DNA of 64,000 bases from Microthrixaceae bacterium (GTDB lineage Bacteria; Actinomycetota; Acidimicrobiia; Acidimicrobiales; Microtrichaceae): the NCBI GenBank assembly GCA_023958095.1, contig JAMLGJ010000001.1:124001-188000 (forward strand), in the 5' to 3' direction. Made by a program: the position numbers and the translations under genes. Positions 3,059-45,421 of this stretch are shown one piece after another. Below the pieces are notes generated by a model. The model saw only the letters and a list, made by a program, of their open reading frames with translations. It was not told the DNA's origin and made no database searches. Every line of letters begins with the position of its first letter. Within the stretch, counting starts at the first letter, position 1.

Positions 3059-4087
3059 GTGCGTACGACCCTCGTGCGCGCCACCCTCTTCCTGGGTGGT
3101 GTGCTGATCAGTGCCTGGACCTACCTCGTGGTGTCGGGCTCGGCCCTGGGCAGCGGCCCCCTGTTCGTGCTCGAGGAGGGGATCGCCTCGAGCACGGGAC
3201 TCCCCTTCAGCCTCGTCACGGTGCTCACGGGCGTGTTCCTGCTCTCGAGCGCTGCGGTCATGAGGGCACCGGTCGGTCCGGGGACCCTCTGCGTACCGGT
3301 CGCCTTCGGAGTGCTGGTGGCGCTTCTCGAGCCGACCGCACCGGTGCTGGACGGGAACACTCCTGCCTGGCTCGCGCTGCGCCTCGTGGTGCTCGTCGTG
3401 GCCACGCACCTGATGATGCTCGGCTCCGTGATGGTCGTGAGGTCCGCCTTCGGCGCCTCTGCACTGGACGCGGTGATGCTCGGCACCGCACGCGTCCTGC
3501 GTATCGATGCCGCACGGGTGAGGGTCGGGCTCGAGGCGACGATGGCCGCCACCGGAGCGGTCCTGGGAGGCACGGCCGGCATCGGCACGGTCCTCGCCGG
3601 GCTCATGGTCGGTCACAGCTTCCGCTTCTGGGCCCGTCGCCTGCTCCCGGCCAACGCCACGGCCGACGACCGCGGGGACACGGCCGGCGTCCCGGCTCCA
3701 CAGAGGTCGCGCCTGGCGCGCCCCGCGAGGTCGCTGCGCCCATCTTTGTCGATGCAACCAACTGGGCTAGGTTCCTCCCCAACAGCAGGGGCGCCACGGG
3801 CGGTGTCCCCGGCCGGATGGCGATCCGGCGCCGATTCCAGGAGTACCGATGTCACCGAAGAAGCTGGCCCTGTCGTTGTTCCTCCCGCTCGTGCTCGTCG
3901 CCGGAGCATGCAGCGACGGCGAGGACTCGGCAGACGACGTGCCGACCGACGAGGAGACCACCACGGAGGACTCCGCACCCGACGAGGGCGACGGGGCGGC
4001 GTCGGAGGACTCCGGGACCGAGGCCGCCGAGGCCGAGACAGTGGCGATGTCGCCGGGCAACGCCATGGGAACCCCGCCCACCGGTGA
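3059..4087 (+). CDS. YczE/YitT-like membrane protein with anomalous C-terminal tail
   Basis: The first ~200 residues form a multi-helix membrane protein resembling the YczE/YyaS/YitT family: hydrophobic segments at about 5-25, 45-65, 75-90, 100-120 and 160-190, with FGASALDAVMLG and the terminal GTVLAGLMVGHSFRFWARR seen in that family. GGAG lies 6 nt before the GTG start. Family members are about 200-220 aa, but here the frame stays open to residue 342. The last ~130 residues are a low-complexity Arg/Gly/Pro-rich tail, and the final 239 bp lie out of frame inside the next gene, including its signal peptide. The tail is either a non-conserved read-through or a sign of a frameshift near residue 200; in the +1 frame a TAG at 3768 would end it. 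Function unknown. Confidence 0.6.
   Translation: MRTTLVRATLFLGGVLISAWTYLVVSGSALGSGPLFVLEEGIASSTGLPFSLVTVLTGVFLLSSAAVMRAPVGPGTLCVPVAFGVLVALLEPTAPVLDGNTPAWLALRLVVLVVATHLMMLGSVMVVRSAFGASALDAVMLGTARVLRIDAARVRVGLEATMAATGAVLGGTAGIGTVLAGLMVGHSFRFWARRLLPANATADDRGDTAGVPAPQRSRLARPARSLRPSLSMQPTGLGSSPTAGAPRAVSPAGWRSGADSRSTDVTEEAGPVVVPPARARRRSMQRRRGLGRRRADRRGDHHGGLRTRRGRRGGVGGLRDRGRRGRDSGDVAGQRHGNPAHR
3746..3773 (+). promoter_or_regulatory. Candidate promoter of FAS1 lipoprotein gene
   Basis: TTGTCG (3746-3751), a 16-bp spacer and TAGGTT (3768-3773) resemble an actinobacterial housekeeping promoter. It lies about 75 nt before the FAS1 start and inside the open tail of the preceding frame, which argues that the tail region is really intergenic. 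Confidence 0.4.
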
Positions 4088-4511
4088 CACCGCCGAGTTG
4101 AACATCGCGGAGATCGCGGCCGGCACCGCGGACGTCTCGACGTTGACGCGGCTCGTGATCAAGGGCGGACTCCTCCCAACGGTGCGCGACGGTGGCCCCT
4201 TCACCGTGTTCGCACCCACGAACGAGGCCTTCGCGGAGATCCCCCACGACGTGCTGCGCGACCTCTCCGCCAACCAGCCCGAGCTGGCCGACGTGCTCAC
4301 CCTGCACGTGCTGGCGGGCGAGTACACCGCCGAGGACCTCGCATCGCTCGACGGCAGCACCGTCGACACGGTCCAGGGCGGCAAGCTCGCGGTCTCCGTC
4401 GAGGGCGACGTGATCACGGTCGGGGGCGCGACCGTGATCGCTCCCGATGTGTTCGCATCCAACGGTGTGGTCCACCTCGTGGACACGGTCATCACCCAAC
4501 CGAACGGCTGA
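3849..4511 (+). CDS. FAS1 (fasciclin) domain lipoprotein
   Basis: Exported, lipid-anchored protein of 220 aa. The signal peptide (MSPKKLALSLFLPLVLVAGAC) carries a lipobox with Cys at about residue 20. An acidic Asp/Glu/Ser/Thr-rich linker follows to about residue 75, then one FAS1 domain (about 80-218) with the hallmark FTVFAPTNEAF and a terminal NGVVHLVDTVI. FAS1 domains mediate adhesion and matrix binding, so a surface adhesion or envelope role is likely but inferred. AGGAG lies 6 nt upstream of the ATG. It converges on the metallophosphoesterase gene, 9 bp away. A second FAS1 gene is at 42203, but that one has a membrane-anchored C-terminus instead of a lipobox. Confidence 0.93.
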   Translation: MSPKKLALSLFLPLVLVAGACSDGEDSADDVPTDEETTTEDSAPDEGDGAASEDSGTEAAEAETVAMSPGNAMGTPPTGDTAELNIAEIAAGTADVSTLTRLVIKGGLLPTVRDGGPFTVFAPTNEAFAEIPHDVLRDLSANQPELADVLTLHVLAGEYTAEDLASLDGSTVDTVQGGKLAVSVEGDVITVGGATVIAPDVFASNGVVHLVDTVITQPNG

Positions 4512-42202: not shown

Positions 42203-42856
42203 ATGAAGAAGACCGCTGTCGTCGCAGCAGTATCCGCAATCGCCCTCGTGCTGGGATTCGCTTCCAGCGCGGCGGCCCAGGAGGAACCGCCGGGCACCAT
42301 CGTGGATGTCGCCTCGAGCAACGAGGACTTCTCCACGCTCGTCACCGCCGTGAGCGAGGCCGGTCTGGTCGAGACGCTCTCCGGGGAGGGCCCCTTCACG
42401 GTGTTCGCACCCACCAACGCCGCCTTCGAGGCACTGCCGGCAGGCACCCTCGACAGTCTGCTGGCGGACCCCCAGGGCGCCCTGACCGACGTCCTGCAAC
42501 TGCACGTGGTCGCCGGTGAGGTGAACTCCGAGGCTGCCATTGCCGCCGCAGGTGGCAACGTCGAGACCCTCGGTGGTCCCGTCGCGGTGGAACTGCGCGG
42601 TGAGGACCTCTACGTGGGTGGCGCCAAGGTCGTGACCACCGACATCGAGGCCTCCAACGGCGTGGTCCACGTGATCGATGCGGTGATCACCGAGCCCGCC
42701 TCGGCCGCGACCCCTGAGTCGATCGAGGCCGGCACCTCCGGTCTCGCTGCCGACGGTGGCACGAACGGGCTGCTCCTCGGCCTCGTCGCAGGAGTTGCAC
42801 TGCTCGGCGTGGGCACCGGTGGCATTGCGATCGCCCGCAACCGCACCCACGGCTGA
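42203..42856 (+). CDS. FAS1 (fasciclin) surface protein with C-terminal sorting-like signal
   Basis: Exported adhesion-type protein of 217 aa. A signal peptide (about 1-26, ending SSAAAQ) is followed by one FAS1 domain (about 30-165) with FTVFAPTNAAF and NGVVHVIDAVI. After a short linker come L181-A-A-D-G185, a hydrophobic helix (189-211) and the basic tail RNRTHG. That order (pentapeptide, helix, positive tail) is that of a cell-wall sorting signal; LAADG resembles the LAxTG motif read by actinobacterial sortases, but with Asp for Thr. GGGAGG lies 7 nt before the ATG. A class F sortase gene follows 92 bp downstream. Confidence 0.92.
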   Translation: MKKTAVVAAVSAIALVLGFASSAAAQEEPPGTIVDVASSNEDFSTLVTAVSEAGLVETLSGEGPFTVFAPTNAAFEALPAGTLDSLLADPQGALTDVLQLHVVAGEVNSEAAIAAAGGNVETLGGPVAVELRGEDLYVGGAKVVTTDIEASNGVVHVIDAVITEPASAATPESIEAGTSGLAADGGTNGLLLGLVAGVALLGVGTGGIAIARNRTHG

Positions 42857-42948
42857 GCCGACCGGAACCCACCCGGCCCGGTCCGGAGCGGAGGTCGGAC
42901 CTCTGCTCCGGATCGGTGCTGTCGATGAACCCCTGCCCGGAGGACCGG

Positions 42949-43701
42949 ATGTCACCCTGGAGAACGAGTCTGCTCATGACCGTCAGCGCCATGGTGCTGC
43001 TCGCGGTCGGTGCGATCCTGCTGAACGGGGCCGGTGCACAACCGCGTGCTGACCTGGCCGGGTACGCCGGCAGCGCAGCGGCCGGCGAGGCAACGGGAAC
43101 CGACCCGGCCTCGCTGCAGGACGCAGCCGCGATCGGGGTGGAGTCGGCTCCTCCGGGGGTCGCCGGCACCGACGCCACTGCAGGCGCACCAGCCGATGAC
43201 GCCGGGAGCCCGGAAGCTGCGGGTGGATCCGGCGATTCGCTCCCAGCGGCCCTCCCGGCAGTGCCGACCGGGCTGTCCATCCCGTCGTTGGGGGTCCTGT
43301 CCGCCGTGGTGCCGGTGGGCCTCGAGGCAGACGGGAGCATGCAGATCCCCGGTGCGCAGGAGGCCGGCTGGTACCTGCCGGGACGCATCCCCGGTTCTCC
43401 GACCGGCTCGGCGGTGATCGCAGCGCATGTCGACTTCAACGATTCTCCGGGGGTGTTCTTCGACCTCCGCAACATCCAACCGGGTTCCGAGGTGCTCGTC
43501 TCGGACGCATCCGGCGCCACGCACCGCTTCACGGTCACCGAGCGCATCCAGCTGGCCAAGGAGCAGGTGCCCATGGAGCAGCTGTTCAGAACCGGGGGCG
43601 ACCCGGTGCTCACCCTGGTCACCTGTGGCGGAGCTTTCGACCGGTCGGAGCGTTCCTACGCGGACAACATCATCGTGTGGGCCACACCCGTTGCGGCCTG
43701 A
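42949..43701 (+). CDS. Class F sortase
   Basis: Membrane-anchored cysteine transpeptidase of 250 aa. An N-terminal helix (about 6-26) is followed by a long Ala/Gly/Ser/Asp-rich stalk (about 30-105) and the sortase domain (about 108-248). The catalytic residues are H160 in IAAHVDF, C226 in TLVTCGGAFD and R235 in RSERSYADN, all placed as in class F enzymes. IPSLGVLSAVVPVGL opens the domain. GGAGG lies just ahead of the ATG at 42949; ATGs at 42916 and 42925 are alternatives. It probably processes surface proteins such as the FAS1 protein encoded just upstream; this pairing is inference. Confidence 0.92.
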   Translation: MSPWRTSLLMTVSAMVLLAVGAILLNGAGAQPRADLAGYAGSAAAGEATGTDPASLQDAAAIGVESAPPGVAGTDATAGAPADDAGSPEAAGGSGDSLPAALPAVPTGLSIPSLGVLSAVVPVGLEADGSMQIPGAQEAGWYLPGRIPGSPTGSAVIAAHVDFNDSPGVFFDLRNIQPGSEVLVSDASGATHRFTVTERIQLAKEQVPMEQLFRTGGDPVLTLVTCGGAFDRSERSYADNIIVWATPVAA

Positions 43702-43725: not shown

Positions 43726-45324
43726 TCAGCCGGTTGCCCAGGTGCCCGCCATGGACGACGGTTCCGGATCCACCCCGACCTGCTCGAAATACCCCGCATC
43801 CAGTGCCTCGAGCATGTCGGATCCCGGCCCGGCAGCGGCCACGGTCCCGGTCGCGAACCCGGCGGACACGCTGCCCACCCTGTCGGGCTGCATGCCCGGC
43901 GAGATGAGCTGGGGAAGCCCTTCGCAGTGGTCCGTCGGTGCACGCAGCGGGATGTCGTCCAGGTCGAACACGGTCGGGTCGGGTCGCGTGGCCGCCAGGG
44001 AGTGTCCGATGTTGTTGGCATGCCGGTCCCGCGGGGTGAGCCACCAGTTCGGGGAGCCTCCCGGGCCCTCCACCGGGGCACCGAGGAAGCGCCACTCGAT
44101 GAAGCGCAGTATCGAGGTGTGGTCGTATGTCCGGTGGTCCACGAAACCGGGGCGCGCATATGGCGAGGCGAGCACCGTCGGCACCCGGAAGCCGGCCTGG
44201 CCGAAGTTCTCCTCGTCGTCGCCGGAGGCGAGCAGGTCGGGAAGCACCGGTGGCGCCACGTGGTCGAAGAAGCCACCCCACTCGTCGTAGGTGAGTACGA
44301 ACAGCCCGGACTCCCAGTGGGGTGACTCCACGAACGCCCTGAACACGTCGCGCATGAAGCGCTGGCCCGCAGCCGGGTCGGCGAGCGGGTGGTCATCGGC
44401 CTGCCACCAGGGCAGGTACGGAGGGTCCAGGAAGGTCACCGCCGGGAGCGTGCCGCGGTCGCAGTCCTCGAAGTAGCGGTCGATCGGCGACAGGATCGGC
44501 ACCATCCGCTCACCCCAGAACGCGAGCGACGGAAGGTCCGGCGAGTAGGACCGACAGCCCACCCCGGCGGCGCGCAGACGGTCCCAGATGGTGTCCCACT
44601 GGTGACCGAGTTCGAGTATCGGCAGGTAGTTGTTCTTGTACCCGCCGGACTGTGCCGAGTGGAGGTACCGACGGTTCGGCTGGGTGGGCCCGAGTATCGA
44701 GCAGTGGTAGCGGTCGAAGGTCGTGAAACGACGCGCCATGCGTGCGTGCAACGGCAGGTCGTCGGCCTCGTGGTAGCCGAGGGCGAACATGTCGTTGTTC
44801 GAGCCCTCCCCGATGAACCCCCTGTCGCGCTGGGCCCTTCCGGCACCCCAACCGTGGCCCGGGTCCTCGAAGCCACATCCGCGCCAACCGGCCGGGGAGG
44901 CTCCACCACCCAGGGAGTAGGTGGGCGCCTCTGACCCCTCGGGGGTCAGGTAGGTCACCTCCTGACGCGCATCGATGCTGAACGCCGAGCCGTAGTTGGA
45001 CATGCCGCGTTCCATGTAGCCGTCGTCGCGGCTCAACCAGCCCAGGTAGTGGTCGAAGGAGCGGTTCTCCATCATCAACACGACCACGTGGTCGATCGGC
45101 GACTCGCTCGCGGGCAGGTCCAGCATGTTCCCCTCGGGCAGCGCAGTGGGGAAGTACTCCCTCCCCACCCCCGGGGTGGCGGGCACGCAGGCAGTGGCGG
45201 TCGGACCCAGGGCTGCCGCTGCACCCGCGAGTCCGGTCGCCCTGAGAAAGCCGCGGCGCGGCACCGCATCCCCGGTGGGCGCCGACCCGCCTCCGCTCCG
45301 CACGTTCACCGTCCGTGTGCCCAT
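43726..45324 (-). CDS. Tat-exported phosphoesterase (phospholipase C / acid phosphatase family)
   Basis: 532-aa protein of the PF04185 phosphoesterase family, which includes phospholipases C and acid phosphatases. The Tat signal RRGFLRATGLAGAAAAL (about 22-38) is followed by a possible lipobox-like TACVP. The catalytic domain opens DHVVVLMMENRSFDHYLGWL, the family's metal/nucleophile block, and continues with TFDRYHCSILGPTQPNR and FLDPPYLPWW. VLTYDEWGGFFDHVAPP holds further metal ligands. AGGAGGGG precedes the ATG at 45324; the longer frame to 45408 was rejected. The substrate may be phospholipid or another phosphate ester. Confidence 0.9.
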   Translation of the reverse strand: MGTRTVNVRSGGGSAPTGDAVPRRGFLRATGLAGAAAALGPTATACVPATPGVGREYFPTALPEGNMLDLPASESPIDHVVVLMMENRSFDHYLGWLSRDDGYMERGMSNYGSAFSIDARQEVTYLTPEGSEAPTYSLGGGASPAGWRGCGFEDPGHGWGAGRAQRDRGFIGEGSNNDMFALGYHEADDLPLHARMARRFTTFDRYHCSILGPTQPNRRYLHSAQSGGYKNNYLPILELGHQWDTIWDRLRAAGVGCRSYSPDLPSLAFWGERMVPILSPIDRYFEDCDRGTLPAVTFLDPPYLPWWQADDHPLADPAAGQRFMRDVFRAFVESPHWESGLFVLTYDEWGGFFDHVAPPVLPDLLASGDDEENFGQAGFRVPTVLASPYARPGFVDHRTYDHTSILRFIEWRFLGAPVEGPGGSPNWWLTPRDRHANNIGHSLAATRPDPTVFDLDDIPLRAPTDHCEGLPQLISPGMQPDRVGSVSAGFATGTVAAAGPGSDMLEALDAGYFEQVGVDPEPSSMAGTWATG

Positions 45325-45421
45325 TGCCCCTCCTGTGCCGACGGTCCCGCCGGCGGACCGTGCCCGGCACCATGTTCGCCCAACGAGGTGTCCCCCGGCC
45401 ATGGTCACGGTGAACCGGCGG

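Follow-up and report, generated by a model that had tools for sequence, protein, structure and literature searches.

The window (the whole stretch of DNA that was analysed, 64,000 nucleotides, part of a 3.25 Mb genome in 67 contigs) contains a gene for a FAS1 (Fasciclin) protein followed by a gene for a class-F-type sortase, and we consider it probable that the two form a dedicated pair in which the FAS1 protein is cut at IEA/GTSG and the more distal pentapeptide LAADG serves as linker. With slightly less confidence we propose a more general view: that the actinobacterial class F sortases are His-Cys-Asn enzymes with a signal of their own ([VI]-x-[TSA]-G-x-[GSA]-[GSP], placed some 11 residues ahead of the helix and lacking both Leu and a Pro/Ala-x-Thr core), that they often have one cognate neighbour substrate, and that the heads of these substrates (DUF4397, FAS1, ice-binding, DUF11, CHRD, DUF4331) were swapped and the tail was kept, the pair in the window being one such swap. 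The features concerned are:

42203..42856, + strand: gene for the FAS1 (Fasciclin) protein, 217 aa (open reading frame and sequence)
42326..42691, + strand: Fasciclin domain, residues 42-163 (Pfam PF02469)
42713..42742, + strand: candidate sorting element P-E-S-I-E-A-G-T-S-G, residues 171-180 (invariance of Gly177, conservation of Pro171, profile of non-FAS1 tails)
after base 42730, + strand: proposed cut Ala176/Gly177
42743..42757, + strand: LAADG, residues 181-185, here taken as linker (varies among FAS1 tails)
42770..42835, + strand: C-terminal hydrophobic helix, residues 190-211 (sequence; kept in all sortase-adjacent FAS1 tails)
42836..42853, + strand: short basic tail RNRTHG, residues 212-217 (sequence; Arg214 invariant in eight aligned FAS1 tails)
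42949..43701, + strand: gene for the class-F-type sortase, 250 aa (PF04203; NF033748 best but below its cut-off; AlphaFold2 model; fold search)
43426..43428, + strand: sortase His160, invariant (40-sequence alignment)
43624..43626, + strand: sortase Cys226, invariant, in TCGG (same alignment)
43666..43668, + strand: sortase Asn240, invariant, where the usual catalytic Arg stands (same alignment)
33907-34293 of contig C56 of the same genome (G000): the other sortase of the genome, with more hydrophobic stretches past the sortase domain

The FAS1 protein scores 117.6 bits with PF02469 (cut-off 22) and is built of a signal-peptide-like start (judged by eye), one Fasciclin domain, a short spacer, PESIEAGTSGLAADGGTNG, a hydrophobic stretch and RNRTHG; its C-terminus reads ...PESIEAGTSG-LAADG-GTNG-LLLGLVAGVALLGVGTGGIAIA-RNRTHG. 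The earlier note, made from the sequence, had described the order of LAADG, hydrophobic helix and basic tail and a sortase gene 92 bp away, and both observations stand: the sortase ATG (42949) lies 92 bp past the FAS1 stop (42856), the gene ending at 43701. A helix and a basic end thus follow the motif, as in an LPxTG-type sorting signal, the basic end consisting of two Arg and one His only. LPxTG or an accepted variant is absent from the FAS1 sequence and from all nine distinct FAS1 tails, and the class E form, L-A-x-T-G before the helix, is likewise lacking, as the window has LAADG and none of the aligned FAS1 tails has Thr-Gly at that site. A second FAS1 protein encoded in the window (3849-4511, + strand) begins like a lipoprotein (VAGAC) and lacks a C-terminal helix.

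The product of the downstream gene has the sortase fold, the His and the Cys, and scores 72.4 bits with PF04203 (cut-off 26.6). Its top NCBIfam model is that of class F (NF033748, 135.3 bits; 20.5 bits with the class E model), which is below NCBI's curated cut-off of 166 bits, and the enzyme is therefore termed 'class-F-type'; the earlier assignment to class F is in line with the best class model and with Asn240, and falls short at the cut-off. In a sample of the phylum the same model recovered 44 of 296 genomes above its cut-off and, with E up to 0.001 as the limit, 180 of them. In the AlphaFold2 model, whose mean pLDDT is 81.5 (>89 in the sortase domain), an N-terminal membrane helix spans residues 3-26; the nearest solved structures in a fold search were sortases, class E first, and a sequence search of solved structures returned one distant sortase, 3rcc. 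The catalytic Arg is missing: all 40 aligned class-F-type sortases have Asn at its site, and a cruder text match over 107 class-F-type frames found Asn in 93, Ser in one and no TC in two, the 11 unparsed frames showing N by eye. Replacement of the Arg by Asn is reported for actinobacterial class F in passages of PMC6998099 (citing Malik and Kim 2019), which state that class F sortases have no assigned function, and Asn240 agrees with this replacement. The convergent neighbour of the sortase gene (43726-45408, - strand) has a twin-arginine-like start and resembles a phosphoesterase or phospholipase C, as judged by eye.

Within the family, the sortase was found in 10 of the 33 genomes and a FAS1 protein whose match extends into the tail in the identical ten, a raw count that includes the kinship among the ten as it is. 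In every one of them the tailed FAS1 gene lies directly upstream of the sortase gene on the same strand, and all ten sortase-adjacent proteins end in a helix and a basic tail. None of the 20 other FAS1 copies that were read to their ends has the tail (the family search yielded 30 FAS1 loci, ten of them sortase-adjacent), and most of these 20 stop just past the domain; the two further FAS1 proteins of the window's own genome lack it as well. A contig scan with the FAS1 protein as query gave 80 FAS1 homologues, mostly domain-selected, that were left out of all counts. The helix-plus-tail arrangement is beyond chance, and the FAS1 protein is, judging from these sequences, very probably used as substrate by the class-F-type sortase next to it. 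The class-F tail profile described below recovers only this FAS1 from the own genome (E 7.5e-12; next best E 0.03), so that the sortase looks like a one-substrate enzyme. The same profile search approximated the check for further L-A-x-D-G tails that the earlier note had suggested, as did the LPXTG-anchor model, whose 15 matches in the genome include LAxTG proteins and no LAxDG one.

What is kept in the FAS1 tails is a Gly four residues ahead of the Leu of LAADG, in the context [VI]-x-[TA]-G, and another Gly three residues after it. The conserved element can be written P-x-x-[VI]-x-[TSA]-G, with IEAG as the form in the window. In the stretch used for pattern counts (29 residues, taken before and around the start of the helix), [VI]x[TSA]G occurs in nine of the nine distinct FAS1 tails (shuffle mean 1.9, max 6) and the longer [VI]x[TSA]Gx[GSAP] in seven (500 shuffles: mean 1.0, max 5). 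The IEAGTSG of the window is among the weaker forms, with Ile for Val, Ala for Thr and Ser for Gly. The distance from the motif Gly to the helix core is 11-12 residues in ten FAS1 tails (11 for IEAG), compared with a median of 11 (range 2-24) in 74 other tails.

We collected the neighbours of class-F-type sortases from three sets of loci: i) 76 loci of the class, family included, of which 36 came from the family and class sortase searches and 40 were picked from the match table roughly by score; ii) a first phylum set of 30 loci found with the NCBI class F model; and iii) a second phylum set of 40 loci, picked from the match table before their tails were known and without the large family f83, which together contain 42 sortase frames (23 with an upstream tail). 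The underlying search with the sortase as query gave a match in 126 of the 394 genomes of the class. Under the stricter tail rule an upstream same-strand frame ending in a helix and a basic tail was present for 67 of the 77 sortase frames at the class loci (a looser rule gave 97 of 107 frames with a tail); no upstream tail was detected at 10 of the 76 class loci, 6 of the 30 first-set loci and 19 of the 42 second-set frames, some of which are at contig ends. A Pfam scan of 69 upstream proteins gave DUF4397 (47), Fasciclin (9), Ice_binding (5) and single matches to DUF4331, to DUF11 with DUF7507, and to CHRD; outside the window's family the tailed upstream protein is not a FAS1 protein. The ice-binding-like proteins that carry this tail beside class F sortases (locus L229 and five of the 69 aligned proteins) are possibly cell-surface ice-binding proteins.

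In a full-length alignment of these 69 proteins (those of the 71 distinct tails of family and class, minus L191 and L197, which were taken for spurious frames; the 24 phylum tails had no part in it) the sole invariant column is Gly177, a result that thus holds for those 69, and Pro171, at position -6 from this Gly, is conserved to 90% or more; a separate tail alignment comprised 34 of 65 distinct tails. Most class tails share P-x-x-V-[PN]-[TS]-G-[TND]-[SGA]-[GP]. A profile built from 56 distinct non-FAS1 tails matches nine of nine distinct FAS1 tails (E 8e-11 to 6e-6 in a set of nine), its T-G columns falling on A-G or T-G of the FAS1 tails and LAADG in a weakly conserved linker. The pattern [VI]x[TSA]Gx[GSAP], devised after the class and first phylum tails had been viewed and before the second set was fetched, is present in 51 of 62 distinct class tails (500 shuffles: mean 5.6, max 12), 20 of 24 first-set tails (500 shuffles: mean 2.7, max 7) and 20 of 23 second-set tails (1000 shuffles: mean 1.9, max 7); [TSA]Gx[GSA][GSP], devised when the second-set tails were known, is present in all 23 of these (mean 4.7, max 12). 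L191, L197 and L217, which look like spurious frames, were scored as misses; under the stricter tail rule L197 has a tail with APKTGQGG.

Over the 394 class genomes the tail profile gave 40 matches at E <1e-5, of which 38 lie beside a class-F-type sortase (counted by eye), 27 of the 40 being rows of the model itself and 11 of the 13 new ones being sortase-adjacent. Two profile matches without an adjacent sortase are in G169, where the contig ends just past the tail, and in G287, where neither a sortase nor a clear motif was found. At E up to 0.001 the profile reaches 69 genomes, compared with 126 by the sortase search, and therefore misses many divergent tails. Among seven named loci of a plasmid collection, six have an upstream tail bearing the motif or a near form (Streptomyces microflavus, S. 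angustmyceticus, S. clavuligerus, Cryobacterium sp., Nonomuraea gerenzanensis and S. nigrescens) and the Paenarthrobacter locus has no upstream tail; in four of the six a 'hypothetical protein' upstream of a 'class F sortase' carries GGVPAGGGG (S. microflavus), GGIHTGGGG (S. angustmyceticus), GGVRAGDGG (S. clavuligerus) or GGVETGGGS (Cryobacterium sp.). The motif type to which IEAGTSG appears to belong is thus found beside most class-F-type sortases with a recognisable partner.

Several loci deviate from the common layout. At three further loci of the second phylum set, L290 (VDTGGGG), L292 (VATGGGG) and L293 (VDTGGGG), the tailed partner is encoded downstream instead of upstream, and L196 has two tandem class-F-type sortase genes, each with its own upstream tail (GGVSAGGGS). 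For some members of the class, the tails at L192, L197, L198, L171, L117 and L200, the motif is x-P-x-T-G-x-G-G (APSTGHGG, APKTGQGG, FPHTGAGG, PKTGAGG), which by its letters reads as an intermediate between LPxTG and the VxTG form.

The earlier note took LAADG, with Asp in place of Thr, for a new recognition motif, which would be the pentapeptide read by the adjacent sortase and cut between Asp and Gly. Its place before the helix and the basic tail is right, its distance to the helix core (3 residues) is like that of the LAxTG signals of six proteins of the own genome (3-5), and it recurs in a second genus of the family. Conservation among the tails led us to reject it and makes this reading very improbable. 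At the site in question eight aligned FAS1 tails read LAADG, LAADS, IAASS, IAATS, VAASS, LAAES and VPTNP, LAADG being that of the window and of one other genus and LAADS that of a relative in the same genus; Ser, Thr, Glu or Asn can thus stand where the window has Asp, and Ser or Pro where it has the final Gly. LAxDG is rare: it occurs in 2 of 9 distinct FAS1 tails, 2 of 62 class tails and, in the first and second phylum sets, 0 of 24 and 1 of 23 tails; the pentapeptide is thus, for the most part, not kept in the sortase-adjacent FAS1 homologues, which is largely the outcome that the earlier note had named as refuting its reading. The class tails with LAxDG, and likewise the one second-set tail, that of L311, VPSGSGGLAADGG, have a clear V-P-[TS]-G ahead of it; in L311 the linker of the window comes immediately after such a motif. 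The idea of a sorting signal unlike LPxTG and LAxTG survives from the earlier note; the signal most likely resides in IEAGTSG, and the proposed cut (A176/G177) lies eight residues ahead of the place where LAADG would be cut.

Were LAADG instead a degenerate LAxTG, the FAS1 protein could be anchored by the other, class-E-like sortase of the genome (C56). Such an enzyme is present, and at least six proteins of the genome end in LAxTG, a helix and a basic tail (L152, L154, L155, L156, L157 and L158, with LAYTG, LAFTG or LAHTG); they come from the LPXTG-anchor model, which was run to E 10 and also has matches in all 14 control genomes, and the count is therefore restricted to matches in which LAxTG can be seen. 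The putatively class-E-like C56 sortase probably serves these LAxTG proteins. As a class E substrate the FAS1 protein was judged unlikely, since Thr-Gly is found at the LAADG site in none of the family's FAS1 tails, and tailed FAS1 proteins occur only alongside the adjacent sortase, in the identical ten genomes, which leaves this reading extremely improbable. We think it unlikely, too, that the FAS1 protein is a plain tail-anchored membrane protein, that the sortase has some other role and that the glycine-rich motif is a flexible feature of exported proteins. This would accord with the cleavage of FAS1 being a prediction only, with a motif that is short and rich in glycine and with a sortase that lacks the usual Arg. 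Against it, the motif recurs beside sortases at the matching position behind head domains that are unrelated, its counts are well above those of composition shuffles, the six LAxTG tails of the own genome are without it (0/6 for [VI]x[TSA]Gx[GSAP]), and the tail-profile matches are nearly all sortase-adjacent, though many are rows of the model.

In the favoured reading of a dedicated pair, the FAS1 protein would be exported, and its C-terminal helix and basic end would then keep it in the membrane. The adjacent class-F-type sortase is predicted to cut the Ala-Gly bond of P-E-S-I-E-A/G-T-S-G and to join the new FAS1 C-terminus to a cell-wall precursor. The element recognised would be the local form of the Actinomycetota-wide signal given above, and LAADG would lie in the linker past the predicted cut. 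We infer the cut and the covalent joining to the wall from the arrangement of genes and tails and from what sortases do. Some points count against this reading: IEAGTSG is among the weaker forms and the longer pattern fails in two of the nine FAS1 tails; part of the sortase loci and frames are without an upstream tail; motif and helix lie further apart than they do in the genome's LAxTG proteins; the sortase scores under NCBI's class F cut-off; and Asn for the catalytic Arg leaves the sortase activity putative. The SrtF of Propionibacterium acnes, reportedly the first class F sortase to be studied (by Di Girolamo, in 2019), is said to accept LPXTG, which counts against the proposed class F motif.

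If the motif is right, 'hypothetical' proteins that are left out of sortase-substrate searches would become predictable class F substrates, and the role of class F sortases could be tested in Streptomyces and Actinoplanes, which can be cultured. A ligation tag apart from LPxTG could come from a sortase that reads V-x-T-G-x-G-G, if it is active. No V-x-T-G-type class F sorting motif was found in the literature on class F sortases, searched for the most part outside subscription papers. In the sections concerned, PMC5148588 gives motifs for each of the classes from A to E and says that a PXT core is what every sortase characterised up to that time recognises, PMC10924467 speaks of class F sortases in Streptomyces without a motif, and PMC13251363 sets aside AMIS_11010 (next to srtF1) and AMIS_36440 (next to srtF4) as substrates because no known pentapeptide occurs in them.

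Among the known systems, the window sortase is most like the actinobacterial class F sortases (NF033748; SrtF1-4 of Actinoplanes missouriensis and class F of Streptomyces), as it has its best class model, the invariant His and Cys, and Asn for Arg in common with them, the last as in the relevant passages of PMC6998099; moreover, two of the four srtF genes of A. missouriensis have a neighbour with signal peptide, helix and basic tail, according to the part of PMC13251363 that deals with them. It differs from them in scoring 135 against a cut-off of 166, and in that a substrate and a motif can be proposed for it, whereas the passages on actinobacterial class F in PMC6998099, PMC13251363 and PMC10924467 give none. 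Class E with its LAxTG substrates (Streptomyces coelicolor SrtE1, PMC5148588) is alike in the sortase fold, providing the nearest solved structures, and in the LA of the LAADG pentapeptide; it is unlike in that the window sortase has only 20.5 bits with the class E model, the FAS1 tails have no Thr-Gly at LAADG and the motif spacing is 11 versus 3-5. With the LPxTG signal of class A, finally, the FAS1 tail shares the order of motif, helix and basic end and a small residue ahead of Gly at the proposed cut, but the FAS1-type motif has neither Leu nor a Pro/Ala-x-Thr core and consists of V/I, [TSA] and G, followed by a Gly/Ser-rich stretch.
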